From contig NZ_AZMV01000002.1 in the NCBI RefSeq assembly GCF_000522505.1, positions 186,177-250,176 on the forward strand: 64,000 bases of DNA. Direction: 5' to 3'. The stretch comes from Bifidobacterium moukalabense DSM 27321 (GTDB taxonomy: Bacteria > Actinomycetota > Actinomycetes > Actinomycetales > Bifidobacteriaceae). A model generated the notes under the pieces. That model was given only the letters and a program-made list of their open reading frames with translations, was not told the origin of the DNA and made no database searches. Both the position numbers and the translations under genes were made by a program. Below are positions 1 through 18,915 of the stretch, in pieces; positions within the stretch are counted from its first letter, which is position 1, and each line of letters begins with the position of its first letter.

Positions 1-1003
1 GCCAGCTGAGCTTACGCACCTCGCCGGGGCGCTTGACCTTGCAGAACGGGAACCAGTTCTGCTGGTTCGGGGTCTGTTCCATCAGCATGAACGGCTTGTT
101 GCCGCCGATGCCGCGCATCAGGTCATGACACATGGCGGTGAAGCTCGGCAGGGTGTCCATGCCCGGGTAGTTGTCCCAGCTGACCACGTCCATCTCCTTG
201 GCCCACTCGAAGTAATCGAGGTCCTTGAACGTGCCCATGAGATTGGTGGTGATCGGCGTGGCCGCATCGTATTCACGAATCGCATCACGTTCGTTCACAT
301 AGCATGCGAGCTGCGCCTGGCTTTGGAAGCGGCGGTAGTCCATCTGCAGGCCGGAGACCACGCACTTAGCGTCGCTGATGCCGTCGCCGTAGTTGACCGG
401 CGGCACCACGTCGGCCCAATCGGTGATGGTGTGGCTCCAGAAGTTCGCGCACCACGCCTGGTTGAGCGCTTCGACGGTACCGTACTTGGCCTTGAGCCAT
501 TCGCGGAAGGCGGCCGCACACTGATCGCAGTAGCACAGGCCGCCGCCTCCGCCGTATTCGTTGCACACATGCCAGTTCACGAGGCCCGGAGTGCCGGTGT
601 AGCGTTCGGCCACATGTGCGGCGAGCGCGCGGGACACTTCGCGGAAGTACGGCGAGGTCGGGCAGAAGTTGTGCCGGCCTCCGAACACGTGGCGGGTGCC
701 GCTCTGTTCGGTACGAATCACTTCAGGGTGCAGACGCACCATCCAGCCAGGCAAGGCCGCGGTGCCGGTGGCCATCACGATGTTGAAATCGTGCTTGACG
801 AGCAGCGCGACGATGTTGTCGAGCATGGTGAAGTCGTAGCGATCCTCGGCCGGCTGCAGCAGCGCCCACGAGAACACGTTGATGGTGACTTCGTTGATAT
901 AGGCGTCTTCGAGCATTTCGATGTCATGCTCCCAGGTCTCCTCCGGCCACTGTTCCGGGTTCCAATCGCCGCCGAACAGGAAGTGGTCATAGATCGGTTT
1001 CAT
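1..1003 (-). CDS. GH42 beta-galactosidase (3' end cut by window edge)
   Basis: Intracellular family 42 beta-galactosidase; at least 334 residues are visible and the C-terminus lies beyond base 1. The N-terminus FLFGGDWNPEQWP is typical of GH42. The acid/base Glu is in WHVCNEYG (E149), and the Cys cluster CYCDQC plus FCPTS matches the zinc site found in many GH42 enzymes. There is no signal peptide. ATG at 1003 is preceded by AAGGAG (7 nt spacing). It is the last visible gene of the operon that starts near 14.4 kb, 57 bp after the GH43 gene. In this context it would remove beta-1,2-galactose from xyloglucan side chains after defucosylation; that substrate is inferred, since bifidobacterial GH42 enzymes vary widely in linkage preference. 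Confidence 0.93.
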   Translation of the reverse strand, partial: MKPIYDHFLFGGDWNPEQWPEETWEHDIEMLEDAYINEVTINVFSWALLQPAEDRYDFTMLDNIVALLVKHDFNIVMATGTAALPGWMVRLHPEVIRTEQSGTRHVFGGRHNFCPTSPYFREVSRALAAHVAERYTGTPGLVNWHVCNEYGGGGGLCYCDQCAAAFREWLKAKYGTVEALNQAWCANFWSHTITDWADVVPPVNYGDGISDAKCVVSGLQMDYRRFQSQAQLACYVNERDAIREYDAATPITTNLMGTFKDLDYFEWAKEMDVVSWDNYPGMDTLPSFTAMCHDLMRGIGGNKPFMLMEQTPNQQNWFPFCKVKRPGEVRKLSW

Positions 1004-1059
1004 CAGGGTCTCCTTCTTCAGACTGAATCTCGTACGTTTTCACTTGGCAACAATTGCCG

Positions 1060-2571
1060 TTACTCATCGGCAACGCCGGTACCTGCCTGATAGTGCACTT
1101 CGGTGAAATCGACGACGCCGACACCGTGCGCATAGATACCAAGCAAGATTCCGGTGAATCCTCCAGCGTTGGTGAAGCTCAGTACTTTGCCGGGAGCCTT
1201 GCCGAGCGTAGTTTCGTCGGAAGAAGTACCGACGGCGAAGGCGTAGCCGTAATCGTCACCCCGAACGATAAGCCGTACCGGTCCGCCCGCTGGTACATGC
1301 ACATCGCCGACCCGTGATATCAGACCAGCATTGTGCACGATCGCATCGATTGCGACGGTATCGGCTTCGACGGAATGCACTGAGATGGTCATATAGTGGT
1401 CGGCGTTCGCATAAATCGCGATGCCGGCAGTTCCGGAGACGAGTTGCGTCGGATCGGCGATGGTCGCCGTAAACGCACAACGGAAATCGGTCTGCCGAGT
1501 GCCGATCATCGGCGCTCCCGCCTTCAAACCGAAATCCTGTTGCGCGGCCGTGACGGTGATATGCGAGCCCGCATCATTCATCGTAAAGCGATGTGCCTTG
1601 TCGATGCTCGGTGTGATCCATGCGATCTCACGCTCCAAAGCCTCGCCACAACCGTTGAGAGGGCAATCGTAGGACTGGTCGGCAAGGTCGGGCCAACCAT
1701 CCTTCCACGTGAACCACACCCCATACGGTTCACGGCCAAGCCAGCCTTGGGCAGGATACTCGTCGTTGTTGCGCGTGCCATGGAACACCATCAGGGTTCG
1801 CTCGGTGTCGAAATGGGCGCAATCGCAGTGTCCGATGGCCTGTAAGGTCAAATGTGTGCTGCGGTTGGTGATCAGTGGATTGCCCGGATACATCTCGTAC
1901 GGCCCGGTCGGACTGGACGAGCGGGCGATGTTCTCCATGTGTCCGGATTCCGTACCACCTTCGGCCCACATGAGATAGTATGTGTCGCCTCGCTTGTACA
2001 TGTGCGGGCCTTCCGGATTCGATCCGGTGATGCCTCCGCAGATACGCTGACGTTTGGTCAGCACGGTTCCTGTGGTGACATCGATGCGTGACAGGTAGAT
2101 TCCCGCGGGTTCACATTCACCATTGTCGTCCGGCTCGGAACCTTCGTTGCCGCAGATGTAGACCGAACCGTCGTCATCAAAGAACAGGCTGGGGTCAATG
2201 CCCGGCCATCCCTCCACCCAGATCGGATCGGACCATCCGTTATGCGGATCGTCGGTGGTGAGGATCATGTTGCCTTTGTTGACGTTGGTGACAATCAGAT
2301 AGTATCGGCCGCCATGGTAGCGCAACGTCGGTGCGTAGATGCCTTGGCTGTTACCCATGAATTCATAGGGGAACTGGGACTCCCTGTCCATTGCGTTGCC
2401 GATGTGCCGCCAATGCTCGCCGTCGGTGCTTTCGAACACAGGCAGGCCCGGAAAGAATTCGAAGGAGCTGTTGACCATGTAATACGTACCCTGAGGGGTT
2501 TCGCAGATAGTCGGATCCGGATGAAAGCCTGACGCGATACGCTTGGCTTCGATAACGTTGAAAAGGGTCAT
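1060..2571 (-). CDS. GH43 beta-xylosidase / alpha-L-arabinofuranosidase
   Basis: A 503-residue cytoplasmic GH43 enzyme: a five-bladed propeller domain (about 1-310) followed by a beta-sandwich domain (about 330-500). The three catalytic acids are visible: base D19 in SGFHPDP, D126 in GIDPSLF, and acid E187 in SNPEGPH. The length and C-terminal sandwich fit the beta-xylosidase/arabinofuranosidase subfamilies related to GH43_11/12. The ATG at 2571 has only a weak ribosome site (GAAAG). It lies 30 bp after the GH5 gene. In this operon it could remove arabinose from arabinosylated xyloglucan or terminal beta-xylose; the sequence does not decide which. Confidence 0.88.
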   Translation of the reverse strand: MTLFNVIEAKRIASGFHPDPTICETPQGTYYMVNSSFEFFPGLPVFESTDGEHWRHIGNAMDRESQFPYEFMGNSQGIYAPTLRYHGGRYYLIVTNVNKGNMILTTDDPHNGWSDPIWVEGWPGIDPSLFFDDDGSVYICGNEGSEPDDNGECEPAGIYLSRIDVTTGTVLTKRQRICGGITGSNPEGPHMYKRGDTYYLMWAEGGTESGHMENIARSSSPTGPYEMYPGNPLITNRSTHLTLQAIGHCDCAHFDTERTLMVFHGTRNNDEYPAQGWLGREPYGVWFTWKDGWPDLADQSYDCPLNGCGEALEREIAWITPSIDKAHRFTMNDAGSHITVTAAQQDFGLKAGAPMIGTRQTDFRCAFTATIADPTQLVSGTAGIAIYANADHYMTISVHSVEADTVAIDAIVHNAGLISRVGDVHVPAGGPVRLIVRGDDYGYAFAVGTSSDETTLGKAPGKVLSFTNAGGFTGILLGIYAHGVGVVDFTEVHYQAGTGVADE

Positions 2572-2601
2572 TGCAGGGAACTTTCTTCGTTGGAGGTTGT
2601 G

Positions 2602-3693
2602 TTATCGCGCTGCCGACATGGCGTGCGCCTCTTGGTAGATGGCTTCGATCTCGGGATCGAAGAAACGGCCGGTTTCGCGATCGAGAAAGCGCATTTCCTT
2701 GGTGGAGGTGTCCCATAGGATCGGGCAGGAGCCGTTGGCTAGCGCGCAGCGGATGACGGTACGCAGCCATCTGATGTTGCTGTCGTGATCCTTGTGGTCG
2801 ATGGGTTCGGTCAGAAGGCCGTACTCGCCGACGATCACAGGAATGCCATTGTCGATGAAACGCGCCTTCTGTTTGGCGAAGTCCGCTTCGACTGCGGCCA
2901 CCTCCTCGTCGCTACCCCATTCGTCGATCGGCGTGCACCAGTCGCTGTCATGTTCGGCGAGCACGAATTCGGCAGGCGAGTAGTAGTGGATCGACACAAT
3001 CAGATGATCGTCGATGACGTCTTTCGGCAGCCGGAAGCGCTCGTTGCAGGTCAGTGCGGTGTCGGTGTTGTAACCGGGGATCAGAAGGAACCGGTCGGCA
3101 TTGTTGCCGCCGGAGGTACGCACGATATCGACAAACAGTTGGTTCAGCCGATTGAGCAGTTCGTAGGCAGTGTCTTGGTGGGCGGCGTGCGGAAAGCAGA
3201 TCTCATTGCCGCCTTCGAAGATCAGATGATGGTCGTAGTCGTGGAATCGTTCCGCGATCTGATGCCACAGTGCGGAAAAACGAGAGCAGACGCCCGGATA
3301 GTCCTCGCTGGCGGTGCGGATCCAACCGAACGGGCCATTGCCGCCATCGTGGTGTACGTCGACGATTACGTTCAGTCCGGCATCATAGCTCCAGTCGACG
3401 GCACGCTGCACGGCGTCCATCCATACCGTGTCGACGTCGCCGGTGTTCGGATTCTGCCAGTCTTTCCATGTAACGGGAATACGAATGGTGCCGAAACCTG
3501 CCTTCTTGACGAAGAAGGCGCATTCGCGGGTGAACGGTTTGTTGAACCACAGCCGCTGCTGGTCTTCGGGCGTCCACACTCCCCCGGTGGTGATCCTTAT
3601 GTTGCGCTCATCGTTCAGCGGAACCGGGTCGAAGGTGTTGCCCAGATTCCAGCCGAGACCGAGATCGCGCACAAATTCAAGTGCTGTGGTCAT
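2602..3693 (-). CDS. GH5 endo-beta-1,4-glucanase-like enzyme, cytoplasmic
   Basis: A 363-residue single-domain GH5 protein. It opens with LGLGWNLGNTFDP as in endoglucanases of the GH5_4 type. The acid/base E164 is in FEGGNEI and the nucleophile E290 in PVIVGEYG. VDVHHDGG and SIHYYSP are other family blocks. It has no signal peptide, binding module or anchor, so it should act on imported oligosaccharides, not on polymer. The start ATG at 3693 was chosen over an upstream start at 3726 because AGAAGAGGCG lies just before it. It sits between the alpha-xylosidase and GH43 genes. Given those neighbours, cutting the glucan backbone of xyloglucan oligosaccharides is the most likely job. A mannan or mixed-linkage glucan substrate cannot be excluded. 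Confidence 0.85.
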   Translation of the reverse strand: MTTALEFVRDLGLGWNLGNTFDPVPLNDERNIRITTGGVWTPEDQQRLWFNKPFTRECAFFVKKAGFGTIRIPVTWKDWQNPNTGDVDTVWMDAVQRAVDWSYDAGLNVIVDVHHDGGNGPFGWIRTASEDYPGVCSRFSALWHQIAERFHDYDHHLIFEGGNEICFPHAAHQDTAYELLNRLNQLFVDIVRTSGGNNADRFLLIPGYNTDTALTCNERFRLPKDVIDDHLIVSIHYYSPAEFVLAEHDSDWCTPIDEWGSDEEVAAVEADFAKQKARFIDNGIPVIVGEYGLLTEPIDHKDHDSNIRWLRTVIRCALANGSCPILWDTSTKEMRFLDRETGRFFDPEIEAIYQEAHAMSAAR

Positions 3694-3839
3694 TCGTCGC
3701 CTCTTCTCGCCATACAAAACTCCCACTGGCGGGAGCGGCCGCGCGTTCGCGCGGCTGAAGGTGGCCTCTACGATGCAAAGCCACCCTCAGCTAGGCCCTT
3801 CGACCTGTCAGTCTCACCAGCGGGAGACAGGTTTTCACA
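3694..3839 (-). other. Intercistronic gap with several hairpins
   Basis: The gap between the GH31 stop and the GH5 start contains three inverted repeats. GCTGAAGGTGGC at 3753-3764 pairs with GCCACCCTCAGC at 3780-3791. CCGCGCG-TT-CGCGCGG lies near 3739-3754. GACCTGTC near 3803 pairs with GACAGGTT near 3826. There is no T-run, so these look like mRNA-processing or stability hairpins, not terminators. Confidence 0.5.
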
Positions 3840-5870
3840 TCACACGTGCAGCGGATCGGTGCCCGGGCGTGCCAGCACCGGCAGGGTGTGGTAGTCGTAC
3901 TGCTCGGTGTACCACTTGCCCGGTTCGTAGGCGGTGCCGGTGATGATGTTGGTCCAGGCCTGGCCGGTGCCGTCGTCCGGCACATAGAAGCGGGCCACGC
4001 CATCCTCGCGGAATACCGGGGCGACCAGCAGGTCATCGCCCAGCATGTACTGGGTGTCGATGTCTTCGCAGGTCGGGTCGTCCGGGAATTCGAGCACCAT
4101 GGCACGCATCATCGGAACGCCTGTCTCGTGCGTCTCCTGAGCCATCTTGAGCAGGTACGGCTTGAGCTGCAGCTTGAGCTCGGTGAACTCGCGGGCCACG
4201 TCGACGGCCTCGTCGCCATACAGCCACGGCACCTTGTAGGCAGTGGAGCCGTGGTAGCGGGAGTGGGAGCTCAACAGGCCGAACTGCGTCCAACGCTTGT
4301 ACAGGTCCGGGCTCGCCTGATCCTCGAAGCCGGCGATGTCGTGGCTCCAGTAGCCGAAGCCGGACATGCCGAAGCTCAGGCCGGCACGCAGGGATTCCGC
4401 CATGGACGGGTAGTTGGAGGAGCAGTCGCCGCCCCAATGCACCGGGAACTGCTGGCCGCCCACGGTTGCGGAACGGGCGAACAGAATGGCCTGATCGGCG
4501 CCCTTGGTTTCGACGAGTACGTCATAGACGGCCTTGTTGTACAGGTAGGTGTAGTAGTTGTGCATCAGTTCCGGATCGGAACCGTCATAATACTTGACGC
4601 CCTCGGTCGGGATGCGTTCGCCGAAGTCGGTCTTGAAGCAGTCGACGCCCATGGCCACGAGCTTCTTCAGGTAGCCCTGGTACCACTCGGTGGCCTCCGG
4701 GTTGGTGAAGTCGACGACGGCCATGCCGGCCTGCCACTTGTCCCACTGCCACACGGAGCCGTCTTCGTTCTTGATGAAGTAGCCGTTCCTGGCGCCTTCC
4801 TCGAACAGCGGGGACTTCTGGCCGATGTAGGAGTTGATCCACACGCAGATCTTCAGGCCGCGGTCATGCAGCTTCTTGAGCAAACCTTCCGGATCCGGGA
4901 ACTTGGACTTGTCCCACTCGAAGTTGCACCATTCGAGTTCCTTCATCCAACGGCAGTCGAAGTGGAATACGGACAGTGGAATGTTGCGCTCGGCCATGCC
5001 GTCGACGAACTCGAGCACGGTCTTCTCGTCGTAGTCGGTGGTGAAGGAGGTGGACAGCCACAGGCCATAGCTCCAATCCGGAACCAGCGGGGCCTTGCCG
5101 GTCAGGTCGGTGTAGGTGTTGAGGATCACCTTGAGATCCTCGCCGCCGATCACGGAGTAGCTCATCTCTTCGCCCGGCACGGAGAACTGCACGCGGGAGA
5201 CCTTCTCGGAGCCGACCTCGAAGCTGACCTTGCCCGGATTGTCGACGAACAGGCCGTACTTCCTGTTGGACAGGTAGAACGGGATGTTCTTGTAGGCCTG
5301 CTCGGTGCCGGTGCCGCCGTCCTCGTTCCAGATGTCGACGGTCTGGCCGTTCTTGATGAAGTTGGTGAAGCGTTCGCCCAAGCCGTAGATCTTCTCGCCC
5401 ACGCCGAGGTCGAGCTGTTCGCTCACGTGCAGACGGCCTTCCGGATCGGTGACGAGGCCCTTGGCACGCCAGCCGGAGTGCGCGATGACCTTGCCGTCGT
5501 ACAAGTACTTGAAGTCGATGGTCTCACCCTTGGCGATTTCGAGGGTCAGGCGGCCGGAGGTGAAGGTCCACTTGTCGTCGGTCTCGCTGATTTCAACGTC
5601 CGGATCGGTTTCGTTCAAGCCGAACTTCGGGCAGTTGCTGCGATCCTTCCTGAAGTTGATCAGCTTGGTGGTGATCACGTCTTCGCGCGGCGAGGTGACC
5701 TCGATGGTCAGGATGCCGCCGTCGAGCGTCATGCCGGCGTTGTAGATCGGAGAGCCGAACGGGCAGAACAGGGTAAGCTTCTTCGGCTCGATGTTGGCAG
5801 TATAGATGTTCGCTGCGTACTTGACGCTGAAACCATCCTTGACGAGCCAGCCGCCGTTGAGGAACTTCAT
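3840..5870 (-). CDS. yicI: GH31 alpha-xylosidase, YicI type
   Basis: A 676-residue cytoplasmic alpha-xylosidase that releases xylose from the non-reducing end of isoprimeverose and xyloglucan oligosaccharides. The match to E. coli YicI is close: GLGERFTNF, WQWDKWQAG, nucleophile D415 in CFKTDFGER, acid D482 in PVHWGGD, SSHSRYHGS, and MRAMVLEFPDDP. The active-site loop reads HFDCRWMKELEWCNFEWD; YicI has Phe where this has Arg307 (recalled, not aligned). The start ATG at 5870 was chosen because AAAGGAG precedes it by 6 nt; an upstream in-frame start at 5933 lacks this. It is followed by the GH5 gene. It is the strongest single marker that the operon handles xyloglucan. Confidence 0.95.
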   Translation of the reverse strand: MKFLNGGWLVKDGFSVKYAANIYTANIEPKKLTLFCPFGSPIYNAGMTLDGGILTIEVTSPREDVITTKLINFRKDRSNCPKFGLNETDPDVEISETDDKWTFTSGRLTLEIAKGETIDFKYLYDGKVIAHSGWRAKGLVTDPEGRLHVSEQLDLGVGEKIYGLGERFTNFIKNGQTVDIWNEDGGTGTEQAYKNIPFYLSNRKYGLFVDNPGKVSFEVGSEKVSRVQFSVPGEEMSYSVIGGEDLKVILNTYTDLTGKAPLVPDWSYGLWLSTSFTTDYDEKTVLEFVDGMAERNIPLSVFHFDCRWMKELEWCNFEWDKSKFPDPEGLLKKLHDRGLKICVWINSYIGQKSPLFEEGARNGYFIKNEDGSVWQWDKWQAGMAVVDFTNPEATEWYQGYLKKLVAMGVDCFKTDFGERIPTEGVKYYDGSDPELMHNYYTYLYNKAVYDVLVETKGADQAILFARSATVGGQQFPVHWGGDCSSNYPSMAESLRAGLSFGMSGFGYWSHDIAGFEDQASPDLYKRWTQFGLLSSHSRYHGSTAYKVPWLYGDEAVDVAREFTELKLQLKPYLLKMAQETHETGVPMMRAMVLEFPDDPTCEDIDTQYMLGDDLLVAPVFREDGVARFYVPDDGTGQAWTNIITGTAYEPGKWYTEQYDYHTLPVLARPGTDPLHV

Positions 5871-5897
5871 ACATTGCTCCTTTGCATTGATCGGATT

Positions 5898-5939
5898 CCG
5901 TCTTTGGAAGGCCGGTCGTGGTCGGCCCTCCAAAGACGG
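5898..5939 (-). repeat. Intercistronic hairpin between GH3 and GH31 genes
   Basis: A 17-bp arm at 5898-5914 pairs with 5923-5939 (one mismatch) around a 8-nt loop. On the minus transcript it is followed by AATCCG, not by U residues, so read-through into the alpha-xylosidase gene is expected. It may stabilise the upstream message or act as a partial attenuator. Confidence 0.6.
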
Positions 5940-5983
5940 TTTGTTATTTCATTTTACCTTATTGATAAGTTTATAGATAAGCG

Positions 5984-8113
5984 CTATGCGACACGTCCGG
6001 AAAGACGGATATCTTCAACCGAATCACCCACGAACACGTTTGCCGCCGGCGCAAGGGCGTAGGCTTCGGATTCGTTGGACCAGTAGCGCAGTGCCTTGGC
6101 GACGGGCATCGTCACGGTGACTTCACGGGACTCGCCGGCAGCCAGTTCGACTTTGGCGAAGCCCTTGAGCTCCTTGGCCGGGCGATCCTCGCCGGTGCCC
6201 TCAAGGCCGAGATACACCTGGGCGACCGCCTTGCCGGCGCGGCCCCCGGTGTTCTCGACGGTGAAGGTGGCACGGATCTCATCGCCCACATGGCGCACGT
6301 CAATGCCGTGATAGGCGAAGCTCGTATAGCTCAGTCCATGGCCGAACGGGAAGAGCACCGGAATCCGCCTGGTATCGAAATAGCGGTACCCCACGTAGAT
6401 GTCTTCCGTGTAGTCGACGTGGCCTTCGAGACCGAAGGTGCCGATCTTATGCGCGGGTTCGTCGGCGAGCGCTATCGGGAAGGTTTCCGGCAGATGGCCG
6501 CTCGGATTCACGCGCCCCAGCAGTACCTCGGCCAGCGCGGTGCCGGATTCGCAGCCCGCATACCAGTTCCACACGATGGTCTTGGCCTTGCCGGCCCACG
6601 GCATCTCGACCGGAGAGCCGGCCACAAAGACAAGAATTGTGTTCGAATCGGCCTCAAGCAGCGCTTCGATCAACTCGTCCTGGCCGTACGGCAAGCGCAT
6701 GTCGGTGCGATCGCGACCTTCCAGGTCATGTTCATGGTCAAGGCCGCCGACGAAGATCACCGGATTCCCGGCGTCGGCGTACTCGCGGGCCTTGGCCACG
6801 GCCTCCTCACGCAGCACCTTGGCCCGCCCTTCGTCCTTGGCATCGGAGCCCTTGGAGTTTTCAAGGCTCTCCTCCTGCCAGGACTCGTCCTGGTTGACCT
6901 GTTTGGCGTCGTATCCGAGTACATATTCGATGTCGACATTGCCGCCAAGCTCGCCGTTGAGGCCCAGCAGAGGCGAAACCTCATGCAACGCCTTGATCAC
7001 GGCCGAGCCGCCACCGTTCGAGTGGATGCGGTCGGCGTTCGCGCCGATGACCAGCAGTCGGGTCATCTTCGTCTCGTCAAGCGGCAGCAGACCCTCATCG
7101 TTCTTGAGCAGAATGATGGATTCGCGCGCGACATCCAGTGCCTTTGCGGCATGGCCAAGGCTTGCGTAACGCCCCGGCTTGCGGTTCGCGCGGGCATCGC
7201 CCAGCATGTGCAACGCATCCATGACGGCGATCACGCGCTCGACCTTCACGTCGATGTCGCCTTCCCTGACCTCACCGGCCTCCACGGCCTTCTTCAGCGG
7301 TTCCGCAAAGTAGTATTCGTCGAAATTCGGCGTCACCGACATCTCGACGTCCATACCGACTTCGGCGCTGGCCTTGGTGTCGCGCACGGCGCTCCAATCG
7401 GAAACGACGAAACCATCGAAGCCGTATTCACCGCGCAGAATGTCGTCAAGCAGCTGCCTGTGTTCGCAGCACTTGGTGCCGTTGACGAGATTGTAAGCGC
7501 CCATGACGGAGAGCACGCCGCCATCCTGCACCGCCGCCTCGAAAGCCGGCAGGTAGATTTCGCGCAATGCCCGCTCGCTTACGCTCTCGTCAACGTCAAG
7601 TCGGTCGGTCTCCTGGCTGTTGACCGCATAGTGCTTCGCGCAGGCGGCCACGTCGGATTCCTGCACGCCCTGGATGTAGGCTACGCCCTGTACGGAGGTC
7701 AGTACCGGATCCTCGCTCATGTATTCGAAGTTGCGTCCGCATAGCGGGCTGCGTTTGATGTTGATGGAGGGGCCGAGAATCACGTCTTTGCCGCGGCCAC
7801 GCGCCTCCTCGCCAAGCACCTCGCCGGTCGCGCGGGCCAGATCAGGGTTCCAGGTGGAGGCGACGGCCGAGCCGGAAGGCAGGTAGGTCACGTAGTCGCG
7901 GGTGTTGTACAGCGGCGCCCAGTTGTCGTTATGCAGTTCGGCGCGAGGACCCATCGGACCGTCGTCCATCTTGAGGGACGGAATGCCCAGCCGTTCGGCA
8001 CCGCCGTTACGGAACAGGCCCGCGGCGTGCACGATGGCGATCTTCTCGCCCAACGTGAGTTTGGCGGTCAGGTCCTTGGCCAGAGCCTTGTTGGCTTCGG
8101 TGATTACGGTCAT
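5984..8113 (-). CDS. GH3 beta-glucosidase
   Basis: A 709-residue cytoplasmic GH3 enzyme with the usual order: TIM barrel (about 1-320), alpha/beta sandwich (about 350-560) and fibronectin-like C-terminal domain (about 620-700). The nucleophile D239 is in GFVVSDW, and KHYAVNSQETDR holds the substrate-binding KH block. No signal peptide. The ATG at 8113 follows GAAGGAAG. It would remove terminal beta-1,4-glucose from oligosaccharides once the alpha-xylosidase has unmasked them. GH3 members also include beta-xylosidases, so exact specificity is inferred from context. Confidence 0.93.
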   Translation of the reverse strand: MTVITEANKALAKDLTAKLTLGEKIAIVHAAGLFRNGGAERLGIPSLKMDDGPMGPRAELHNDNWAPLYNTRDYVTYLPSGSAVASTWNPDLARATGEVLGEEARGRGKDVILGPSINIKRSPLCGRNFEYMSEDPVLTSVQGVAYIQGVQESDVAACAKHYAVNSQETDRLDVDESVSERALREIYLPAFEAAVQDGGVLSVMGAYNLVNGTKCCEHRQLLDDILRGEYGFDGFVVSDWSAVRDTKASAEVGMDVEMSVTPNFDEYYFAEPLKKAVEAGEVREGDIDVKVERVIAVMDALHMLGDARANRKPGRYASLGHAAKALDVARESIILLKNDEGLLPLDETKMTRLLVIGANADRIHSNGGGSAVIKALHEVSPLLGLNGELGGNVDIEYVLGYDAKQVNQDESWQEESLENSKGSDAKDEGRAKVLREEAVAKAREYADAGNPVIFVGGLDHEHDLEGRDRTDMRLPYGQDELIEALLEADSNTILVFVAGSPVEMPWAGKAKTIVWNWYAGCESGTALAEVLLGRVNPSGHLPETFPIALADEPAHKIGTFGLEGHVDYTEDIYVGYRYFDTRRIPVLFPFGHGLSYTSFAYHGIDVRHVGDEIRATFTVENTGGRAGKAVAQVYLGLEGTGEDRPAKELKGFAKVELAAGESREVTVTMPVAKALRYWSNESEAYALAPAANVFVGDSVEDIRLSGRVA

Positions 8114-8182
8114 GTTCTCTTCCTTCTTCGTTTCCTTCAGTCGCTGGTCTGACTGTGGGTGGTCGTTATGCTGTTCTTCCCA

Positions 8183-9676
8183 TCAGCCGACGGTTATCTT
8201 GAACCCGATCGGCAGCCCCTTCTGGTCGGGTTCCCTCGGCAACGGAGAAATCTCCAAGGCTTCGTCGCCGCGGCGGAACCGCACAGATCCCGCCCCAAGC
8301 TGCTCCACTGATGCGACGATGCCGTTGAACGGCGGTTTGATGCCGTCGTGATACGCGGCGAATGTCGACATCGTAAGTGTTTCACAAGATGTTTCATGAT
8401 TATCCGCGATATCGTCGGGATTCAGGCAGAAGGCGTAGATCGCACCGTTTTTCGTAGTAAATCGCCAATCGGCGGCCGTCCATGCAGTCGGTTGCTGATC
8501 GGCGAACATGCCCTCGGCCTGCTTCGTCGGGCCTTCCTGCGTAAGTCTCCATGGACGGGTGCCGTAGATGCCCTCGCCGTTCGCACGCAGCCAATCACCG
8601 ATGCCGAGCAACAGCTCACGATCGTGGTCGGCGATCGAACCGTCCGCACGCGGGCCGACATTCAGCAGCAGATTGCCGTTCTTCGACACCGCATCGATCA
8701 ACGAGACGATCAGCTCGGCGAGCGTCTTGTAATCCAACGAATTCGTATAGCACCACGAATTGCGGGCGATTGCGGTATCCGTCTGCCAGGCGAACGGCGT
8801 CGCATCGGCGAAGCCGCCGCGCTCCACATCGACGATGCCCGCGCCCCAGGCGAGACCGTCATACTTGTAGCAGATCGAAACGTTCCGGCCCCACTGTACG
8901 CCGCGGTTGTAGTAGAAGGCGACCAGCTTCCTCATGTACGGCTTGAACGACTCGTGCTGCACCCACCAATCGAAATACAGCAGTTCCGGCCGGTAGTTGT
9001 CGATGATCTCGCAGACGCGCAGCAGCCAATCCTCCAGATATTCGGCACTCGGCGCGGGAGTGCTGTGAATGTCGAATTCGTTCGGTTCGGGCATGGCCGG
9101 CCAATAGAAATCGCCCTTCTGCAACGGCTCCTTGATATCGGAGTCGAAGTCCTTGCCATGGCCCATGAACCACCAATGTTCGGCGCGATGGTTCGAGGTG
9201 GCGAAATGCAGTCCGTGGGCGCACGTGGCGTCGCGCAGCTCCCCCAGCACGTCGCGGTGCGGACCGGTTTCGAAGGTGTTCCAATGCGACAGTTCGCTAC
9301 GGTACATCTGGTAGCCGTCATGGTGTTCGGAAACCGGGAAGTAGTAGCGCGCGCCGGCGGCGGCGAACAGATCGAGCCACTCGTCCGCGTCGAACCGTTC
9401 GGCGGTGAACATCGGGATGAAATCCTTGTACCCGAACCTGTTCTGCGGGCCATAGGCGCTCACGTGGTGCTCGAACTCCGGGTATCCCTCGATGTACATG
9501 TTGCGCGAATACCATTCATTGCGGTATTCGGGAACGGTGTAGAGCCCCCAATGCGTGAAGATGCCGAATTTGGCGTCGTTGAACCATGCCGGGGTCGGAG
9601 CCTGGCTCAACGACTCCCAGGTGTCGGCATAGGGACCGGAGGCGATGACCGCCTCGACGGTGTTCATATCAATCAT
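8183..9676 (-). CDS. GH29 alpha-L-fucosidase
   Basis: A 497-residue GH29 enzyme without signal peptide. FGIFTHWGLYTVPEYRNEW is the family N-terminal signature; the nucleophile is D236 in ELLYFDWW, and NLLLNVGPRADG is a conserved block. The start at 9676 overlaps the end of the esterase gene by 8 bp and is 9 nt from AGGA; a second ATG at 9667 is possible. Translational coupling with the esterase is therefore likely. In the operon it would remove alpha-1,2-fucose from galactose of fucosylated xyloglucan. Its subfamily (A, relaxed, or B, 1,3/1,4-specific) cannot be told by eye. Confidence 0.92.
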   Translation of the reverse strand: MIDMNTVEAVIASGPYADTWESLSQAPTPAWFNDAKFGIFTHWGLYTVPEYRNEWYSRNMYIEGYPEFEHHVSAYGPQNRFGYKDFIPMFTAERFDADEWLDLFAAAGARYYFPVSEHHDGYQMYRSELSHWNTFETGPHRDVLGELRDATCAHGLHFATSNHRAEHWWFMGHGKDFDSDIKEPLQKGDFYWPAMPEPNEFDIHSTPAPSAEYLEDWLLRVCEIIDNYRPELLYFDWWVQHESFKPYMRKLVAFYYNRGVQWGRNVSICYKYDGLAWGAGIVDVERGGFADATPFAWQTDTAIARNSWCYTNSLDYKTLAELIVSLIDAVSKNGNLLLNVGPRADGSIADHDRELLLGIGDWLRANGEGIYGTRPWRLTQEGPTKQAEGMFADQQPTAWTAADWRFTTKNGAIYAFCLNPDDIADNHETSCETLTMSTFAAYHDGIKPPFNGIVASVEQLGAGSVRFRRGDEALEISPLPREPDQKGLPIGFKITVG

Positions 9677-10343
9677 CAAACGTAGTCCTGTTCCAATCGA
9701 AGCCCACGGCCTGACACCATGCACGGGCAATGATCATCGCGCCGCGCTCGTACGGATGCACACGATCTTGGCTGGCCAAGCATCCGTGCAGCTGGGTGAG
9801 CCAATGATCCGCGGCCGCCTGCGTATCGACGAAAATCGCGCCATGGCGTTCGGCCACGCGCTTGGACGCAGCCGCGAATTCCTCAACCTTGGCGCGCATG
9901 GCATCCTGTGGGTTCGGCTCGAACATGAACGGACGCATGACGATGACCCCCTTAAGATTCGGCGCACCCTGTTTCACGCGTTCAATAAGCTCGTCATAGA
10001 TACGCTCGTAAGTTTCCACGGTGTTGAGGCGAGCCTGCCACAGCGGACCGTCGAAATAACGCCAGGCGTCATTCACTCCGATCATGATGGACACATAGTC
10101 CGGATTCATGTCGATGACGTCACTCTGCCAGCGTTCAGACATGTCGACGATATCGTTGCCGTTGATGCCTTCATTGATGGTGCACAATGCCTTATCCGGA
10201 TATACGGCCGTAAGAAGATTATGCAATGTGTTGACATACCCATGCCCATAACCCCAGCCTCCGGGGATAGCAGTACGGTCGCGGTCGGCGTCCGTGATGG
10301 AATCACCTACGAAAACAATGCGTGAGTACTTTTGGAAAATCAA
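9669..10343 (-). CDS. SGNH/GDSL-type esterase, probable glycan O-acetyl esterase (TTG start)
   Basis: A 224-residue cytoplasmic SGNH hydrolase. Block I is FVGDSIT with nucleophile S15, the block II Gly is in INEGINGND, block III is MIGVNDAW, and the Asp-His pair is in DRVHP near the C-terminus. The reading frame starts at TTG (10343), 7 nt after AAAGGA; no better start was seen. It is the first enzyme gene after the binding-protein gene, across a hairpin. Xyloglucan galactose is often O-acetylated, so deacetylation of imported oligosaccharides is a reasonable role. Close relatives act on acetylxylan or rhamnogalacturonan, so the substrate is not proven. Confidence 0.85.
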   Translation of the reverse strand: MIFQKYSRIVFVGDSITDADRDRTAIPGGWGYGHGYVNTLHNLLTAVYPDKALCTINEGINGNDIVDMSERWQSDVIDMNPDYVSIMIGVNDAWRYFDGPLWQARLNTVETYERIYDELIERVKQGAPNLKGVIVMRPFMFEPNPQDAMRAKVEEFAAASKRVAERHGAIFVDTQAAADHWLTQLHGCLASQDRVHPYERGAMIIARAWCQAVGFDWNRTTFDD

Positions 10344-10426
10344 CTTTGATTCCTTTGTGTCATACGGCGTTGTAGTAGCGCTCGGTTCATATAAACGGTC
10401 GGATTGACGGGCTGGCAGGTAAAGAA

Positions 10427-10477
10427 AGGCGGGGCGCCAGATACCGGTTCAGCACATCTGGCGCCCCGCCTCTTTTT
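10427..10477 (-). terminator. Strong hairpin after the solute-binding-protein gene
   Basis: A 16-bp perfect stem (10427-10442 with 10456-10471) with a 13-nt loop. On the minus strand it is followed by TTCTTTACC, and on the plus strand by CTTTTTG. It lies between the lipoprotein gene and the esterase gene of the same operon. It probably gives more binding-protein message than enzyme message, rather than complete termination. Confidence 0.7.
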
Positions 10478-10512
10478 GTTATTTGGATTGCGTGATGGGG
10501 ACTAACGCCTCA

Positions 10513-12297
10513 TCACTCGGAGGAATCGGAGCCGGAGGACTTCTCCTTGTTCTGATACTCCTTCAGAATGTTCTTACGGGCCTTGTCCTGATCCTTGGCG
10601 TTCTTCATGTCGACCTTCAGCACGGAGTCGATGTCCAGGCCATTGACGGTCTTGACCATCTCGTTGAAGATCTTTTCGCATTCGGACTCGGAGCTGGCGA
10701 AGGACGCCTTCCAAGAAGAGTTGACGATCTCGGTCTTGATGGAACCACGTAGCGTTGAGATCTGGGAATTCTCCTCCGGCTGGACATAACTGGAACCCGC
10801 ACCGACGAGCAACATGTCATTGTTCTCCAAGTATTCCATGGTGGTGGAGGCACCCATATGCTCCTGCCAGTCCTTGTTCAACGGGTTCTGGTTGGCCTTC
10901 TCGATCTCACTTGGCCACATGACCGGGTTATAGGTGTAGCCAGTATCTGGATCGATGTCGTTCACGGTCACAGTGGTGAAGTTCAGAGCGGAGATACCGT
11001 CGGAGTAGGAGCCACCGCCCCACTCTTCCGGCACATTCTTGGATTCGCCGGAGAGTACCGAGGAACCGAATTCGGTCAGAACCGGCTTGCCGTCCTTGAT
11101 CTCCCAATTCAGACCCTTCGGACCAGCGGCGCCGCCGGTCTGGTTGGAGGAATCATAGACACCTTCCGGAGAGTACAGCCAATTGATGAACTTGACCAGA
11201 CGTTGCTTGTTCTTAGCTTTGGAGCCCAGAGCAATCATAGTCTTGTCGCCACGAGGAGCGGCGCCGTATGAGAAGATCTTCATATCCTTGAGCGGAGCCA
11301 GCATGAAGCCCTTACCCTCGGCCTTATTGGCATTGGTGTTGTAGGCCGCCTGTCCAAGCCACGGCCAGAAGGAGAAGAGCACCTTGCCGTTCTTGTACTT
11401 GGAGTTCATGGTGTCGTAGTTCTGGGTGGTGGATTCCGGATCGACGATACCGGCACGGTTGGCGGCATTGAAGAACTTGATCACGCGCTCGTAGATGCCG
11501 TTCTTCTTGGTGATGGATTCGAAGTCGGAACCGTCACCCTTGGCCAGTACGAAGCCGACTTCATCATAGCCATAGAAGCAGGTCGGCTGCTTGGCGTTAT
11601 TCATCATGTTGCCATCCCAGTCCTTGAACAGGGACATGGCATAGATGTCATCGGAGCCGGACTCTTCGCGAGCCTTGTCCTGCATCTGCTTGAGCACCGG
11701 GATGAGATCCTCGAGAGTGTCGATTTCCGGGTAGCCGATTTCCTTGTACAAATCCCAACGTAGGTACGGACCGAAGGTCGGCTCGAGGCCTTCGGACGGC
11801 TGATCGGGGGTCAGGGTGTCGACTACGGACGCCGGAATGCCCCACACACCGGACTTCTGACCGATCTGCTCGTTGACGTAATCAGTGGCATCCTTGTACT
11901 TGTTGATGTACTTCATGCCCTTGAGATACGGGGTCATATCCTCAATTAGACCGGACTTGACAAGCTTGGCGCCTTTACCGGTATCGTAGCCGTAAATCAC
12001 GATGTCGCCCAGATTGCCCGCGGCCGCACGGGTATCGAACAGCGTGCTGCCACCGCCGGCAACGTTCGGGGCCACGATGTTGAGCTTAATATTGAACTTA
12101 TCCTTGATGATCTTGGCGAACCAGCCTTTTTGCTCACCCTGATAGTTCGCCAGACCATCGAAGACCTCAACGGTCATCAGAGAGTTGTCATCCTTTTCGG
12201 CGGCGGTGGTGCTGCCGGATCCTCCGCAGGCGGAGAGCGACATCATTGCCGCAAGCGTCACTGCCGCGGCAATGGTTACCTTCTTTTTGAGGGACAT
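10513..12297 (-). CDS. ABC-transporter solute-binding lipoprotein, LplA type
   Basis: A 594-residue family 1 solute-binding protein. The N-terminus MSLKKKVTIAAAVT is followed by lipobox LSAC (Cys about 24), so it should be a lipid-anchored extracellular receptor. It is longer than MalE-type proteins, as expected for the LplA/YtcQ group used for large oligosaccharides. The last residues are a charged, Ser-rich tail. ATG at 12297 follows AAGGAAGG. It works with the two permeases upstream; no ATPase is encoded nearby, so a shared MsmK-like ATPase is expected. By context it should capture decorated xyloglucan oligosaccharides. Confidence 0.92.
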   Translation of the reverse strand: MSLKKKVTIAAAVTLAAMMSLSACGGSGSTTAAEKDDNSLMTVEVFDGLANYQGEQKGWFAKIIKDKFNIKLNIVAPNVAGGGSTLFDTRAAAGNLGDIVIYGYDTGKGAKLVKSGLIEDMTPYLKGMKYINKYKDATDYVNEQIGQKSGVWGIPASVVDTLTPDQPSEGLEPTFGPYLRWDLYKEIGYPEIDTLEDLIPVLKQMQDKAREESGSDDIYAMSLFKDWDGNMMNNAKQPTCFYGYDEVGFVLAKGDGSDFESITKKNGIYERVIKFFNAANRAGIVDPESTTQNYDTMNSKYKNGKVLFSFWPWLGQAAYNTNANKAEGKGFMLAPLKDMKIFSYGAAPRGDKTMIALGSKAKNKQRLVKFINWLYSPEGVYDSSNQTGGAAGPKGLNWEIKDGKPVLTEFGSSVLSGESKNVPEEWGGGSYSDGISALNFTTVTVNDIDPDTGYTYNPVMWPSEIEKANQNPLNKDWQEHMGASTTMEYLENNDMLLVGAGSSYVQPEENSQISTLRGSIKTEIVNSSWKASFASSESECEKIFNEMVKTVNGLDIDSVLKVDMKNAKDQDKARKNILKEYQNKEKSSGSDSSE

Positions 12298-12420
12298 TGC
12301 GTCCTTCCTTTCTCTATTTCCTTTGATTTGCAGGGATAGGGATTGAGATTGCGGGGACGGTTCGACTGACAGGTCTATCCGGCCCCACGATGGTTATGAG
12401 GAGTATTGGTCCGTTACGAA

Positions 12421-13353
12421 TCAGCCCTTGACAGCTCCGAGCATCATGCCCTTGACGAAGAAGCGCTGGAAGAACGGATATACGAATAGGATCGGGAGCA
12501 CTACAATCACGGAGACTGTCATACGAATCGAGGTAGGCGTCTGCTGTGTTGCGAGGGCCGCCACGTTCATGGCGCTGCCTGCGCTTGCTCTCACCGAGGC
12601 GGCCAGTGCATTCGCTTGGTTGATGTAGGTATAGAGCACGTACTGCAACGAGTAGAGCTTGGAATCCGTCATGTAGATCAAGGTGTCCTGGAAGGAGTTC
12701 CACTGGCCGACGGCGGAGAAAATGCCGACGGTCGCCAGAATCGGGGCCATCATTGGCAAAACGATCTTCCAGAAGATCGTCAGGGTGCCAGCACCGTCCA
12801 TTTCGGCTGCTTCCTGCAGGGAGGAGGGGATGGACTCGACGAATGTCTTGACCAGGATGATATTGAACGGCTGAACAATGGCCGGCAAGATATAGACCCA
12901 GAAGTTGTTGGTCAGATGCAGGTTCTTCATGGTGATGAACATCGGGATCAGGCCTGCGTTGAAGTACATGGTGATCACGATGAAGCGGTACCAGAACTTA
13001 CGGTGCCACATCTTCTCCTGGGTGAACATGAAGCCGAGGAACGCACTGGCAATCACGGTGAGCACAGTGCCGATGACGGTACGGGCCACGGAGATAAAGG
13101 CCGAGGTGGTCAGGCCACTCAGCGCGAAGACCTGCTTATAGTTTTCCCAATGGATGCCTTGCGGCCACCAGTTGACTTGACCCGCTGCGGAGGCGTTGTT
13201 GCTGGAAATCGAGTTGATGATCAGGTAGTAGAACGGGTAAACGCAGACGAACGCGAACGCAAGGAAGAAGATAATGTTGAAGACATTGTAGACTTCTTCA
13301 CCCTTGGTGCGCCTCATAGCCGGCGCAATGCCCTGCTTGATTTTCTTTGCCAT
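12421..13353 (-). CDS. ABC-transporter permease, LplC/YtcP type
   Basis: A 310-residue inner-membrane permease with about six transmembrane helices. The cytoplasmic EAA loop that docks the ATPase reads EAAEMDGAGTLTIFWKIVLP. The C-terminus FFVKGMMLGAVKG is typical of carbohydrate-uptake permeases of the CUT1 group. The start follows AAGGAAGCAATC. It lies 24 bp after the LplB-type gene and 123 bp before the lipoprotein gene, and forms the importer of the putative xyloglucan system. Confidence 0.93.
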   Translation of the reverse strand: MAKKIKQGIAPAMRRTKGEEVYNVFNIIFFLAFAFVCVYPFYYLIINSISSNNASAAGQVNWWPQGIHWENYKQVFALSGLTTSAFISVARTVIGTVLTVIASAFLGFMFTQEKMWHRKFWYRFIVITMYFNAGLIPMFITMKNLHLTNNFWVYILPAIVQPFNIILVKTFVESIPSSLQEAAEMDGAGTLTIFWKIVLPMMAPILATVGIFSAVGQWNSFQDTLIYMTDSKLYSLQYVLYTYINQANALAASVRASAGSAMNVAALATQQTPTSIRMTVSVIVVLPILFVYPFFQRFFVKGMMLGAVKG

Positions 13354-13377
13354 GATTGCTTCCTTACTCTTTCCTCA

Positions 13378-14328
13378 TCAGACGATTGACACGCCGCGGG
13401 TACGCTTGGACAGCCAGTTCACAACAATCAACAGGCCGACGCTGACTAGCGACTTCAGCATGGAAATTGCGGTTGCATACGATAGGGAGTTGTTGCCCAT
13501 ACCGACGTTGTACACATACAGGTCAAGAACTTGGATGTGCTTGGTATTGAAGGCGTTCTGGAACACGAAGTACTGGTCCATGCCGTTGTTCAGGAAGTTG
13601 GAGATCGACAGCATCAGCAACACGAAGTAGGTCGGCAGCAGTTGCGGGATGGTGACGTGGATGATCTGCTGGAAGCGGTTCGCACCGTCCACCTGAGCGG
13701 CCTCATACAGCTCCGGATCGATGCCCGCGATGCCCGCGAGGTACATGATGGAGCCCCAGCCGAGCCCCTTCCACAGGCCCCACAGCAGCATCTTCAGCCA
13801 AGTATGCGAGTCGGAATCAAGAAACTTGATCGGCTCACTGATGATGTGCAGGTTCTGCAGCAGCTCGTTGAACATACCAGTAGTGGAGAACATGGCGAAG
13901 GCCACTGCGTAGACCAGAACCCAGGAGATGAAGTTCGGCAGCGTGGTCAGCGTCTGAATGAGGTTCCTGAACCACTTGGCGCGGATCTCATTCAACGCGA
14001 TGGCGAAGAATAGCGGGAAGAACGAGGTGAGGATGTTCAGGCCGGACATGGCGAAAGTGTTGATGAGCACCTGACCAATGGTTTGAAGCTGTGCCGGGTT
14101 CTGCACCATCATCTTGAACCACTGCAAACCGACGAATTCGCTCTGCGACAGCGGAATCGGCGGTTGGTAGTCATAGAATGCATAAATCCAGCCGAACAGC
14201 GGGAGGTAGCTGAACAGCACGGACAGAATCAAAAACGGCGAAATCAATAGGAACAACTTGAACCCATGGCGCCTCCTGTCGCTTTGTTGCTTACTCAGCT
14301 TTTCGGCCTTGCGTGCCGCTCTCCGCAT
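13378..14328 (-). CDS. ABC-transporter permease, LplB type; N-terminus apparently frameshifted at an A8 run
   Basis: A 316-residue permease with six predicted helices and EAA loop EAAQVDGANRFQQIIHVTIP. The ATG at 14328 has no ribosome site: it directly follows a run of A. A perfect site, AAAGGAGG, lies farther upstream in front of ATGATG at 14411-14416. That upstream frame runs in frame +1 relative to this gene into the A8 run (14327-14334 as T8 on the plus strand) and stops at 14291. Removing one A would join them into a 345-residue protein beginning MMQSQEGMES. Either the run is slippery or phase variable, or the upstream frame is translated and coupled to this ATG, or the base call is wrong. 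Confidence 0.85.
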   Translation of the reverse strand: MRRAARKAEKLSKQQSDRRRHGFKLFLLISPFLILSVLFSYLPLFGWIYAFYDYQPPIPLSQSEFVGLQWFKMMVQNPAQLQTIGQVLINTFAMSGLNILTSFFPLFFAIALNEIRAKWFRNLIQTLTTLPNFISWVLVYAVAFAMFSTTGMFNELLQNLHIISEPIKFLDSDSHTWLKMLLWGLWKGLGWGSIMYLAGIAGIDPELYEAAQVDGANRFQQIIHVTIPQLLPTYFVLLMLSISNFLNNGMDQYFVFQNAFNTKHIQVLDLYVYNVGMGNNSLSYATAISMLKSLVSVGLLIVVNWLSKRTRGVSIV

Positions 14329-14416
14329 TTTTTTTATCGGAAAGCGTCACAGCGCCTGCACTACTGCCATCAGCAGATGTCACCACGCTCTCCATTCCCT
14401 CTTGCGACTGCATCAT
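14291..14416 (-). CDS. Short upstream frame carrying the likely original N-terminus of the LplB-type permease
   Basis: A 41-codon frame with the best ribosome site of the operon (AAAGGAGG, ATGATG). It encodes MMQSQEGMES...VTLSDKK up to the A8 run, and then 12 out-of-frame codons to a TAA. It overlaps the annotated permease start by 38 bp. The first 29 codons look like the polar N-terminal tail that many LplB permeases carry before the first helix. Confidence 0.55.
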   Translation of the reverse strand: MMQSQEGMESVVTSADGSSAGAVTLSDKKNAESGTQGRKAE

Positions 14417-14499
14417 TCCTCCTTTGGTTCGGCGATGCATCCGATGGACCCCCTTCAGGAACGCAACACTTCCTCGATGTCATTCCATCTGGTAACCTT

Positions 14500-14523
14500 C
14501 TTATTTATTGTTTAATAAATAAG
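14500..14523. promoter_or_regulatory. AT-rich 24-bp palindrome, candidate operator
   Basis: Perfect 10-bp arms CTTATTTATT and AATAAATAAG flank GTTT. It lies just downstream of the predicted start site of the transporter operon and upstream of the divergent DUF624 gene, a good place for a repressor. It is unlike the LacI-type boxes elsewhere in the window, and no regulator gene is next to it. Confidence 0.5.
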
Positions 14524-14535
14524 CTGTTAGGAGCT

Positions 14536-14564
14536 ATAGTATATTCGTCTTACTAACTTGTCAA
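14536..14564 (-). promoter_or_regulatory. Probable sigma-A promoter of the xyloglucan operon
   Basis: On the minus strand TTGACA (14564-14559), 17 bp, then TACTAT (14541-14536); an alternative -10 is TATACT with a 15-bp spacer. The expected start site is near 14529, giving a leader of about 113 nt before the ribosome site at about 14420. Confidence 0.6.
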
Positions 14565-14618
14565 TTCAGCGTGCCTAACGGCGGGTATGCTTGAAATATC
14601 AACGAAAACGGAGGTCTA

Positions 14619-15281
14619 ATGCACTACAACCCCAATAGCCCCGTATGGCAGTTTATCTCGCTCTGCCTACGGTATTTCATCCTGAATCTGTTCTTCCTAA
14701 TCTCTATCATCCCAATCGTAACCATCGGGCCGGCCAGAGCCGCCCTATATAGCACGGTGTTTGCCTTCAGCGACAACAACGACATTAACCTCGGTCGTGA
14801 ATACATCAAACGTTTCAAAGGTGAATTCAAGCGAGGCGTCGGTTCCTCCGTCATCTTCGTGACGCTGATCGCCGCAATTGTATTCGCCACCGTATTCTGG
14901 AACGCGCTTGACACCAACGCCGCTTACGTAGCACTACCGATTCTCATCATTTTTGGGGTGCTCACATTCCTGACTTTCGAGTACTACTATCCGCTTCAGG
15001 CACGCTACGAGAACACCTTCCGGCGGACGCTACGCAACTCCTTCATGATGCCTTGGGCCTGTTTCGGATACACGCTCGGCATCCTTGCCATCGACGTAGC
15101 TGCAGGCGCGATCTTTGCGTTCACGCCATACCTGCGATTCCTGTTCGTCCTGCTCGGCTTCGCATGGCTAGCCTACGCCAAATCGCTACTCTACCTGCGG
15201 GCGTTCCAGCGCGCCAGCGGCGACCCGAATACGCCACGGGAAAAGCCAGACTATTCAATGCCCAGTGCTTCCATCCAATAA
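14619..15281 (+). CDS. YesL/DUF624 family membrane protein
   Basis: A 220-residue integral membrane protein with about five hydrophobic segments. The family blocks are the N-terminal WQFISLCLRYFILNLFFLI, the central FKGEFKRG, and YYYPLQARYENTFRRTLRNS. YesL-type proteins of unknown biochemical function are found next to LplABC/YesOPQ-type oligosaccharide importers in Firmicutes and Actinobacteria. Here it is divergent from such an importer and shares its control region. The ribosome site is GGAGG. A role in assembly or regulation of the importer is a guess from synteny. Confidence 0.85.
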   Translation: MHYNPNSPVWQFISLCLRYFILNLFFLISIIPIVTIGPARAALYSTVFAFSDNNDINLGREYIKRFKGEFKRGVGSSVIFVTLIAAIVFATVFWNALDTNAAYVALPILIIFGVLTFLTFEYYYPLQARYENTFRRTLRNSFMMPWACFGYTLGILAIDVAAGAIFAFTPYLRFLFVLLGFAWLAYAKSLLYLRAFQRASGDPNTPREKPDYSMPSASIQ

Positions 15282-15729
15282 CCATGCTCGAAAAACCGGT
15301 CAGGGCTCCCATCCGTTGGATGATTCTAGTCACAGACCTTGTCGACGGCTTCGCCATCCCCCTACAACCACTCACTCAACGTAGTTCCGGACGGATGAAC
15401 TGGATTTGTTAAGCCGAAACGACGTTCAGCCTCGCTTAGCGGCTTTCTAGTAAGAACATTAGCGCATAACCAAACATAGGAAGCCGCGCCAAAGTCACTT
15501 GGCGCGGCTTCAATCCAAGAATTCCGCTATGACAACACCGCCCAGCCCTCTGGAACGATCACAATCTCCCGAATCCAAGTCACACAGCGAATGTACGTCC
15601 GTCGGAGCTGAAGAACCTTATACCACCCGTCTTGCGGGCGGAGAAGACAACGGAGGAACCGTCCGTTTCGGTCACAATGGTTTCAGTGGCATTTACACCG
15701 CTCAGGAACACGGAGACTCCCGCCACCAA
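15282..15729. other. Convergent intergenic region with a 12-bp hairpin and a coding-like remnant
   Basis: AAGCCGCGCCAA (15481-15492) pairs with TTGGCGCGGCTT (15499-15510); it could end transcription from both sides although it lacks a T-run. On the minus strand, bases 15729-15580 continue the GH172 frame past its TGA for 49 more codons (LVAGVSVFLSG...SSDGRTFAV) to a second TGA, with G/C-biased third positions. No other gene is seen here. Confidence 0.5.
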
Positions 15730-16875: not shown

Positions 16876-16976
16876 GATTGCTCCTTTGGAGGGGTTGGCG
16901 CATCACATGCCGTTATCAACTGCATTGAGACCCTTCTGCATATGGTGCGCCAGTTATGTTTCCTGCGGCTATCGCC

Positions 16977-17855: not shown

Positions 17856-17871
17856 GGTTCCACCTTTGCTT

Positions 17872-18810: not shown

Positions 18811-18846
18811 TACAGGATCCTTTTGATGAAGATTGATGTATTGCAG

Positions 18847-18874
18847 GTGTGGCCCGCCCGCAAACGGGCCACAC
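18847..18874 (-). repeat. Intercistronic hairpin between binding-protein and permease genes
   Basis: GTGTGGCCCG (18847-18856) pairs perfectly with CGGGCCACAC (18865-18874) around an 8-nt loop. There is no T-run on the minus strand. It probably protects the upstream lipoprotein message or attenuates the permease genes. Confidence 0.65.
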
Positions 18875-18915
18875 CGATGGTTGGTTACCGAACGATGCGC
18901 CGGCCTGATTGCGCC

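Follow-up and report, generated by a model that had tools for sequence, protein, structure and literature searches.

We analysed a 64,000-nucleotide stretch of the Bifidobacterium moukalabense DSM 27321 genome (G000:C2:186177-250176, where G000 is the genome of the window and the window is this whole stretch), in which ten genes make up a putative operon for the use of xyloglucan oligosaccharides. They follow one another head to tail on the minus strand, from window position 14328 to the first base. In order of transcription they encode two ATP-binding cassette (ABC) permeases (permease 1, 13378..14328, BPD_transp_1 1.3e-20, in an LplB-like place in the operon; permease 2, 12421..13353, BPD_transp_1 1.4e-10), a lipoprotein-like solute-binding protein of 594 amino acids (10513..12297) and an SGNH esterase of acetyl-xylan-esterase-like type (9669..10343, Lipase_GDSL_2 6.4e-27). 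These are followed by enzymes of glycoside hydrolase (GH) families: a GH29 of alpha-L-fucosidase or alpha-L-galactosidase type (8183..9676, Alpha_L_fucos 7.7e-96), a beta-glucosidase-like GH3 (5984..8113, Pfam GH3 domains, the C-terminal one at 1.7e-47), a GH31 of YicI-type alpha-xylosidase character and 676 amino acids (3840..5870, listed open reading frame to 5933, Pfam 1.1e-98 and NF007940), a GH5 of endo-glucanase/xyloglucanase type (2602..3726, Cellulase 9.7e-46), a GH43 with a GH43_C2 domain, of alpha-L-arabinofuranosidase or beta-xylosidase type (1060..2571, Pfam 1.6e-69 and 7.6e-18), and a GH42 beta-galactosidase that runs past the window edge (1..1003, Glyco_hydro_42 3e-116). All the families that the sequence-only reading had placed head to tail on one strand were present in its order, with strong Pfam scores. 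The full GH42 has 675 amino acids (L086:7153-9180, on G000:C2), and four bases past its end, outside the window, lies a ROK-family gene (L086:6162-7148, on G000:C2, ROK 5.4e-29) with no second Pfam domain. On sequence grounds this gene is part of the operon, an addition to the earlier description.

GH31 gave the firmest assignment. On NF007940, the NCBIfam equivalog model for alpha-xylosidase, it scored 1156.7 bits, well above the cut-off of 606. Its closest solved structure was YicI, and it keeps the catalytic pair D415 and D482, in a numbering that begins with MKFLNGG (window 5870). The enzyme is of YicI type by this score and this Asp pair, supporting its proposed place as the predicted alpha-xylosidase anchor of the pathway. 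It matches E. coli YicI strongly and differs in length, since its alignment stops at position 666 of the 771 in the model. The other enzymes were compared with the Protein Data Bank (PDB). GH5, which would belong to subfamily GH5_4, was closest to 6xrk (1e-69); 1,3-1,4-glucanases came next, and the xyloglucanases 3zmr and 2jep ranked slightly lower. GH43 matched the beta-xylosidase 5z5d (3.9e-88) ahead of BoGH43A (8.5e-68) and BoGH43B (2.6e-63). The upper matches of GH3 were mostly named beta-glucosidase (8va7 at 5.7e-149), the esterase matched LAE5 (1.1e-53) and an acetyl xylan esterase (4.2e-52), and the nearest entry to GH42 was 3tts. No signal peptide was seen by eye on any operon enzyme, the cytoplasmic GH5 included.

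Sequence searches with the binding protein found nothing in Pfam (at E 0.001) or in the PDB; the N-terminus of the protein is lipobox-like by eye. An AlphaFold model built from an alignment of 18 relatives reached a mean pLDDT of 88.3, and a Foldseek search of the PDB ranked AlgQ2 best (E 2.9e-15, TM 0.56/0.66), with FusA and Blon_2347 of B. longum subsp. infantis just behind at likewise moderate TM-scores. The model suggests a resemblance to AlgQ-type oligosaccharide binders. No ATPase gene was found among the operon genes, inside the window or in its continuation on the ROK side. A UgpC-type ATPase scoring above its cut-off is encoded at G000:C8:19983-21104, and we infer that an ATPase encoded elsewhere, with this one as the candidate, would power the importer. 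The loci of B. oedipodis and B. bohemicum (L013 and L014) have two binding-protein genes each.

We then compared the operon with that of the closest relative (G028). A junction of 141 base pairs (bp) between GH31 and GH5 in the window (3698..3838; blastn of window 1-16000 against L087) corresponds to 2793 bp in G028, and the flanking DNA is 91.2% and 92.1% identical. The G028 insert, lying between GH31 and the cytoplasmic GH5, encodes an 831-amino-acid protein with GH5, CBM_X2 and CBM46 domains and an N-terminus that looks signal-like by eye. Homologues of this larger GH5 at 54-56% identity occur in the loci of four further genomes (G103, G018, G023 and G012). The copies of G103, G018 and G012 have all three domains, split over two frames in the last, and the G023 copy is known by its match alone (starting at residue 213). 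An enzyme of related design, the GH5_4 protein BlCel5B with Ig-like and CBM46 modules, is reported in the available text of PMC4817029 to have activities of 34 U/mg on beta-glucan, 17.8 on lichenan and 15.7 on xyloglucan. Used as a query against G000, the larger GH5 of G028 matched only the operon GH5 (eight of the 13 first-look candidates scored). Five PF00150 matches in G000 were considered as a secreted xyloglucanase and rejected: one is the operon GH5, and the rest are two weak, single-domain frames of about 400 amino acids, a GH53 protein and a DUF5060/DUF5605 protein. No GH9 match was found in G000, with controls matching in two of 14; the GH44 search was equally empty, yet its controls also failed to match and it carries no weight. 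A secreted CBM46-type GH5 was thus not found in G000, but with GH74, GH12 and GH16 outside the search, these results do not show that the genome lacks secreted xyloglucanases altogether. The comparison suggests, from gene content, that the window genome and G028 are a natural pair of scavenger and polymer degrader. Two of the loci compared hold further genes: in G018, a pair of overlapping frames carrying Big_8- and SpaA-type domains, which may together be a single surface protein, separates GH31 from the larger GH5 (L089:11826-15577), and in G030 a 930-amino-acid frame with an InlB B-repeat domain lies between GH42 and the ROK gene (L092:16363-19155).

We surveyed 112 Bifidobacterium genomes, counting genes as co-located when no more than 15 kb separated them from a counted GH31. 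With a threshold of 68% identity, GH31 was present in 30 genomes (truncated in G026), permease 1 at 79% or more in 26, and the operon GH5 at 55% or more in five. GH29 (25/30, one a fragment) and permease 1 (25/30) were usually close to GH31, and all three stood together in 24 of the 30 carriers, that is, 24 of the 112 genomes; GH43 (16/30), the cytoplasmic GH5 (5/30) and the larger GH5 (5/30) were patchier. These counts define importer, GH29 and GH31 as the core, with GH5 and GH43 as accessories. Of the 59 GH31 rows, the 29 at 51-59% identity were excluded from the counts and treated as a second, longer paralogue. Also excluded were eight of 33 GH29 rows (54-59%) and four of 30 permease rows (51-54%), none of which fell within 15 kb of a counted GH31. 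Flagged rows were G018 (internal stop) and G026 (truncated) for GH31, and G039 (fragment) and G055, G032, G095 and G037 (internal stop) for GH29. In G028, G022, G062, G018, G027 and G042 a longer GH31 paralogue (53-59% identical) is found some 9-11 kb away from the operon GH31, on the importer side in those where the permease was placed.

Both permeases, the binding protein, GH29, GH3 and GH31 occur together in the named loci of ten species (B. erythrocebi, amazonense, callitrichidarum, canis, felsineum, hapali, choerinum, oedipodis, bohemicum and panos); two B. asteroides loci have GH31 without the others. A ROK homologue is present in eight of the ten named Bifidobacterium loci (not in L009 or L014) and, at 37-40% identity, near GH31 in seven of eight Lapidilactobacillus and Enterococcaceae loci (L019-L026). 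In a midpoint-rooted GH31 tree of 57 rows (L006-L060, L087 and the window; 25 loci, L061-L085, were left out, including two from Actinomadura and Asanoa), Bifidobacterium joins Lapidilactobacillus (100/99) and then Enterococcaceae (100/100), with L019 flagged as a long branch. Transfer between phyla is likely on this sequence evidence, in a direction that the tree does not give.

GH29 is the weak link of the xyloglucan assignment. Its likely start, 9676, lies inside a longer listed open reading frame (to 9730) and gives an 8-base overlap with the SGNH gene. Its nearest solved relatives, at E about 1.6e-113, are 7snk, named as an alpha-L-fucosidase of Phocaeicola plebeius, and 7ljj, which with 7lnp is named as an exo-alpha-L-galactosidase; the Asp of its FDWW motif aligns with that of 7snk. 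In an Enterococcus gallinarum locus (L024) the permeases are 64-71% and the binding protein 50% identical to those of the operon, and the GH29, 64% identical over 355 residues, has Asp236 and Glu285. These are the positions reported for EntFuc in the passages available from PMC10380807. EntFuc, compared by reported positions and not by sequence, is probably the orthologue of the L024 enzyme. According to the same passages, it was active only on p-nitrophenyl (pNP)-fucose and negligibly so on 2'-fucosyllactose, with xyloglucan among the substrates tried. The earlier proposal that GH29 removes fucose therefore stands as to family and catalytic Asp; the fucosidase role is not secure, given the galactosidase-named relatives and EntFuc.

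We consider it likely that the operon imports and dismantles xyloglucan oligosaccharides, as the sequence-only reading had proposed. Within the operon, this is supported by the gene families and their order, the GH31 equivalog score and catalytic Asp residues, the nearness of GH43 to BoGH43A/B, the matches of GH5 to xyloglucanases and of the esterase to an acetyl xylan esterase, and a binding-protein model like oligosaccharide binders. Across genomes, it is supported by the co-location of GH31, GH29 and permease 1 in 24 of 30 carriers and by the extra GH5-CBM_X2-CBM46 gene of locus relatives, since an enzyme of this architecture acts on xyloglucan in the part of PMC4817029 cited above. The same strategy is proven for an ATPase-free cluster in Ruminiclostridium cellulolyticum (available text of PMC4780118), and G000 has a UgpC-type ATPase above its cut-off. 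Several observations weigh on the other side. The predicted specificity rests on sequence and modelling; beta-1,3-1,4-glucanases rank above xyloglucanases in the PDB list of GH5, and a beta-xylosidase tops that of GH43; the best NCBIfam model for GH3 is an exo-alpha-L-arabinopyranosidase, at 500.5 bits far below its cut-off of 1300; the operon showed neither a regulator gene nor a shared operator; EntFuc behaves as described above; and BlCel5B, in the activities listed in PMC4817029, prefers beta-glucan over xyloglucan.

We infer the substrate, the order of steps, the serving ATPase and the role of the ROK protein in the following scheme. The binding protein would capture branched oligosaccharides that other organisms release, and the two permeases would import them, powered by an ATPase from elsewhere in the genome. 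In the cytoplasm, the esterase would strip acetyl groups, GH29 would take off terminal L-fucose (or L-galactose), GH42 beta-1,2-galactose and GH43 L-arabinose, if any. GH31 would free xylose from the non-reducing-end glucose and GH3 would then release that glucose, the two alternating, with the cytoplasmic GH5 cleaving longer fragments. The ROK protein would probably phosphorylate a released hexose. The pathway, earlier called complete, is so at most for imported oligosaccharides, as no CBM46-type secreted GH5 was found and the ATPase would come from elsewhere.

The alternative that survives best, though we regard it as unlikely, is a wider plant-wall oligosaccharide range, including cello- and mixed-linkage beta-glucan and arabino-xylo fragments, with xyloglucan one of several substrates. 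The glucanase matches of GH5 and the beta-xylosidase match of GH43 are in its favour, as is the action of the GH5-CBM46 type on beta-glucan and lichenan (PMC4817029, as above). GH5 and GH43 are also accessory, in 5/30 and 16/30 loci. Against it, the conserved core couples GH31 with GH29 (25/30), and alpha-xylose together with terminal fucose indicates xyloglucan. It is highly improbable that the operon serves fucosylated or L-galactosylated host or algal glycans with its plant-type enzymes incidental: the nearest solved GH29 relative is named as an exo-alpha-L-galactosidase or alpha-L-fucosidase of Phocaeicola plebeius, but no hexosaminidase or sulfatase is among the operon genes, and an alpha-xylosidase would have no use there. 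We give equally little credence to an importer restricted to short products, isoprimeverose or cellobiose for instance, for which GH31 and GH3 would be enough, since it would leave GH29, GH42, GH43, the esterase and GH5 idle and the best structural matches of the modelled binding protein bind oligosaccharides.

The xyloglucan assignment also has precedents. The sequence-only reading knew of no well-described locus of this composition in bifidobacteria, a statement that does not hold: the text available from PMC8406136 predicts a xyloglucan island, XG-1, in the marmoset bifidobacteria MARM_A1, B. myosotis and B. hapali. XG-1 unites beta-glucosidase, alpha-xylosidase and alpha-fucosidase genes, as GH3, GH31 and GH29 are adjacent here, and the B. 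hapali locus (L011) follows the order of the window from DUF624 to GH42 but lacks the GH5. The main-text passages of PMC8406136 (as distinct from Fig. S3) name no importer, esterase, GH43 or GH5. In R. cellulolyticum, import and cytosolic hydrolysis of xyloglucan oligosaccharides are proven (PMC4780118, in part). That cluster, like the operon, has ABC importer genes without an ATPase gene and cytoplasmic GH31, GH3 and GH42, and a figure legend mentions related clusters with alpha-fucosidase genes. It differs in its cellulosomal extracellular enzymes and two-component system, neither of which was found at the operon locus, whereas the esterase, GH29, GH43, GH5 and ROK are extra in the operon. 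With no two-component system among the genes seen on either side, the operon may be said to work like the R. cellulolyticum system, not to be one. The enzyme families also overlap with those of the Bacteroides ovatus xyloglucan locus, whose BoGH43A/B and BoGH5 PDB entries were matched; uptake there is of SusCD type, in contrast to ABC import. Among the matches listed in the openly accessible literature (as distinct from subscription papers and preprints), the bifidobacterial xyloglucan pathway that appeared was the predicted XG-1 island, and none of the studies dealt with such a locus biochemically. On cranberry xyloglucans, B. callitrichos is reported to grow slightly, with an optical density (OD600) averaging 0.1557 (PMC6096940, in part).

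We next considered regulation and the surrounding genes. Upstream of permease 1 lies a divergent DUF624 gene (14619..15281, plus strand, DUF624 3.6e-11), which adjoins permease 1 in nine of the ten named Bifidobacterium loci with the importer. Two regulator candidates were rejected: the LacI gene at 20420-21505 belongs with the neighbouring DUF2961 transporter cluster, and the PucR-type gene past the operon end has the opposite orientation. The latter is followed by a CN-hydrolase and an aminotransferase gene. In 17 loci including the window, up to 350 bases before permease 1 were scanned for palindromes (perfect 14-mers, or 16-mers with one mismatched pair); the window had none and five loci had any, with one in common only between L008 and L010. 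The G+C content of window 1-14400 (58.3%) is like that of the whole window (58.5%). The neighbouring cluster (15730-21505, minus strand) comprises a DUF2961 protein, which we take to be GH172, two permeases, a solute-binding protein and the LacI regulator, possibly a separate locus for oligosaccharide use. Farther on are a second GH31 gene (31290-33863, minus strand, 857 amino acids, 28% identical to the operon GH31) and several alpha-amylase-family genes grouped with a MalQ-type 4-alpha-glucanotransferase (42595-54606).

The locus is of a kind already described for bifidobacteria by prediction, with the pathway shown in another phylum, and is a good further example, not a new kind of system. 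New here are its spread across the genus, the GH5 presence/absence pair, the binding-protein fold, the ROK gene in the operon and the doubt over GH29 specificity. A broader proposal, which we hold tentatively and would sooner doubt than accept, is that the presence or absence of a single GH5-CBM_X2-CBM46 gene has divided one conserved import operon of animal-gut bifidobacteria between two lifestyles, degraders of the polymer (G028 with at most four more genomes) and scavengers of oligosaccharides (the window genome and the remaining carriers), that its core of importer, GH29, GH31 and ROK is common with Enterococcaceae and Lapidilactobacillus through inter-phylum transfer, and that GH29 may be an unusual enzyme, not an ordinary fucosidase. 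Xyloglucan is common in fruit and vegetables. A near-full enzyme set for its oligosaccharides would lie in one operon, with the core in roughly one in five of the species sampled (24/112), and since a sister genome carries one more, secreted-looking enzyme, the contrast between polymer cutter and scavenger is directly testable.

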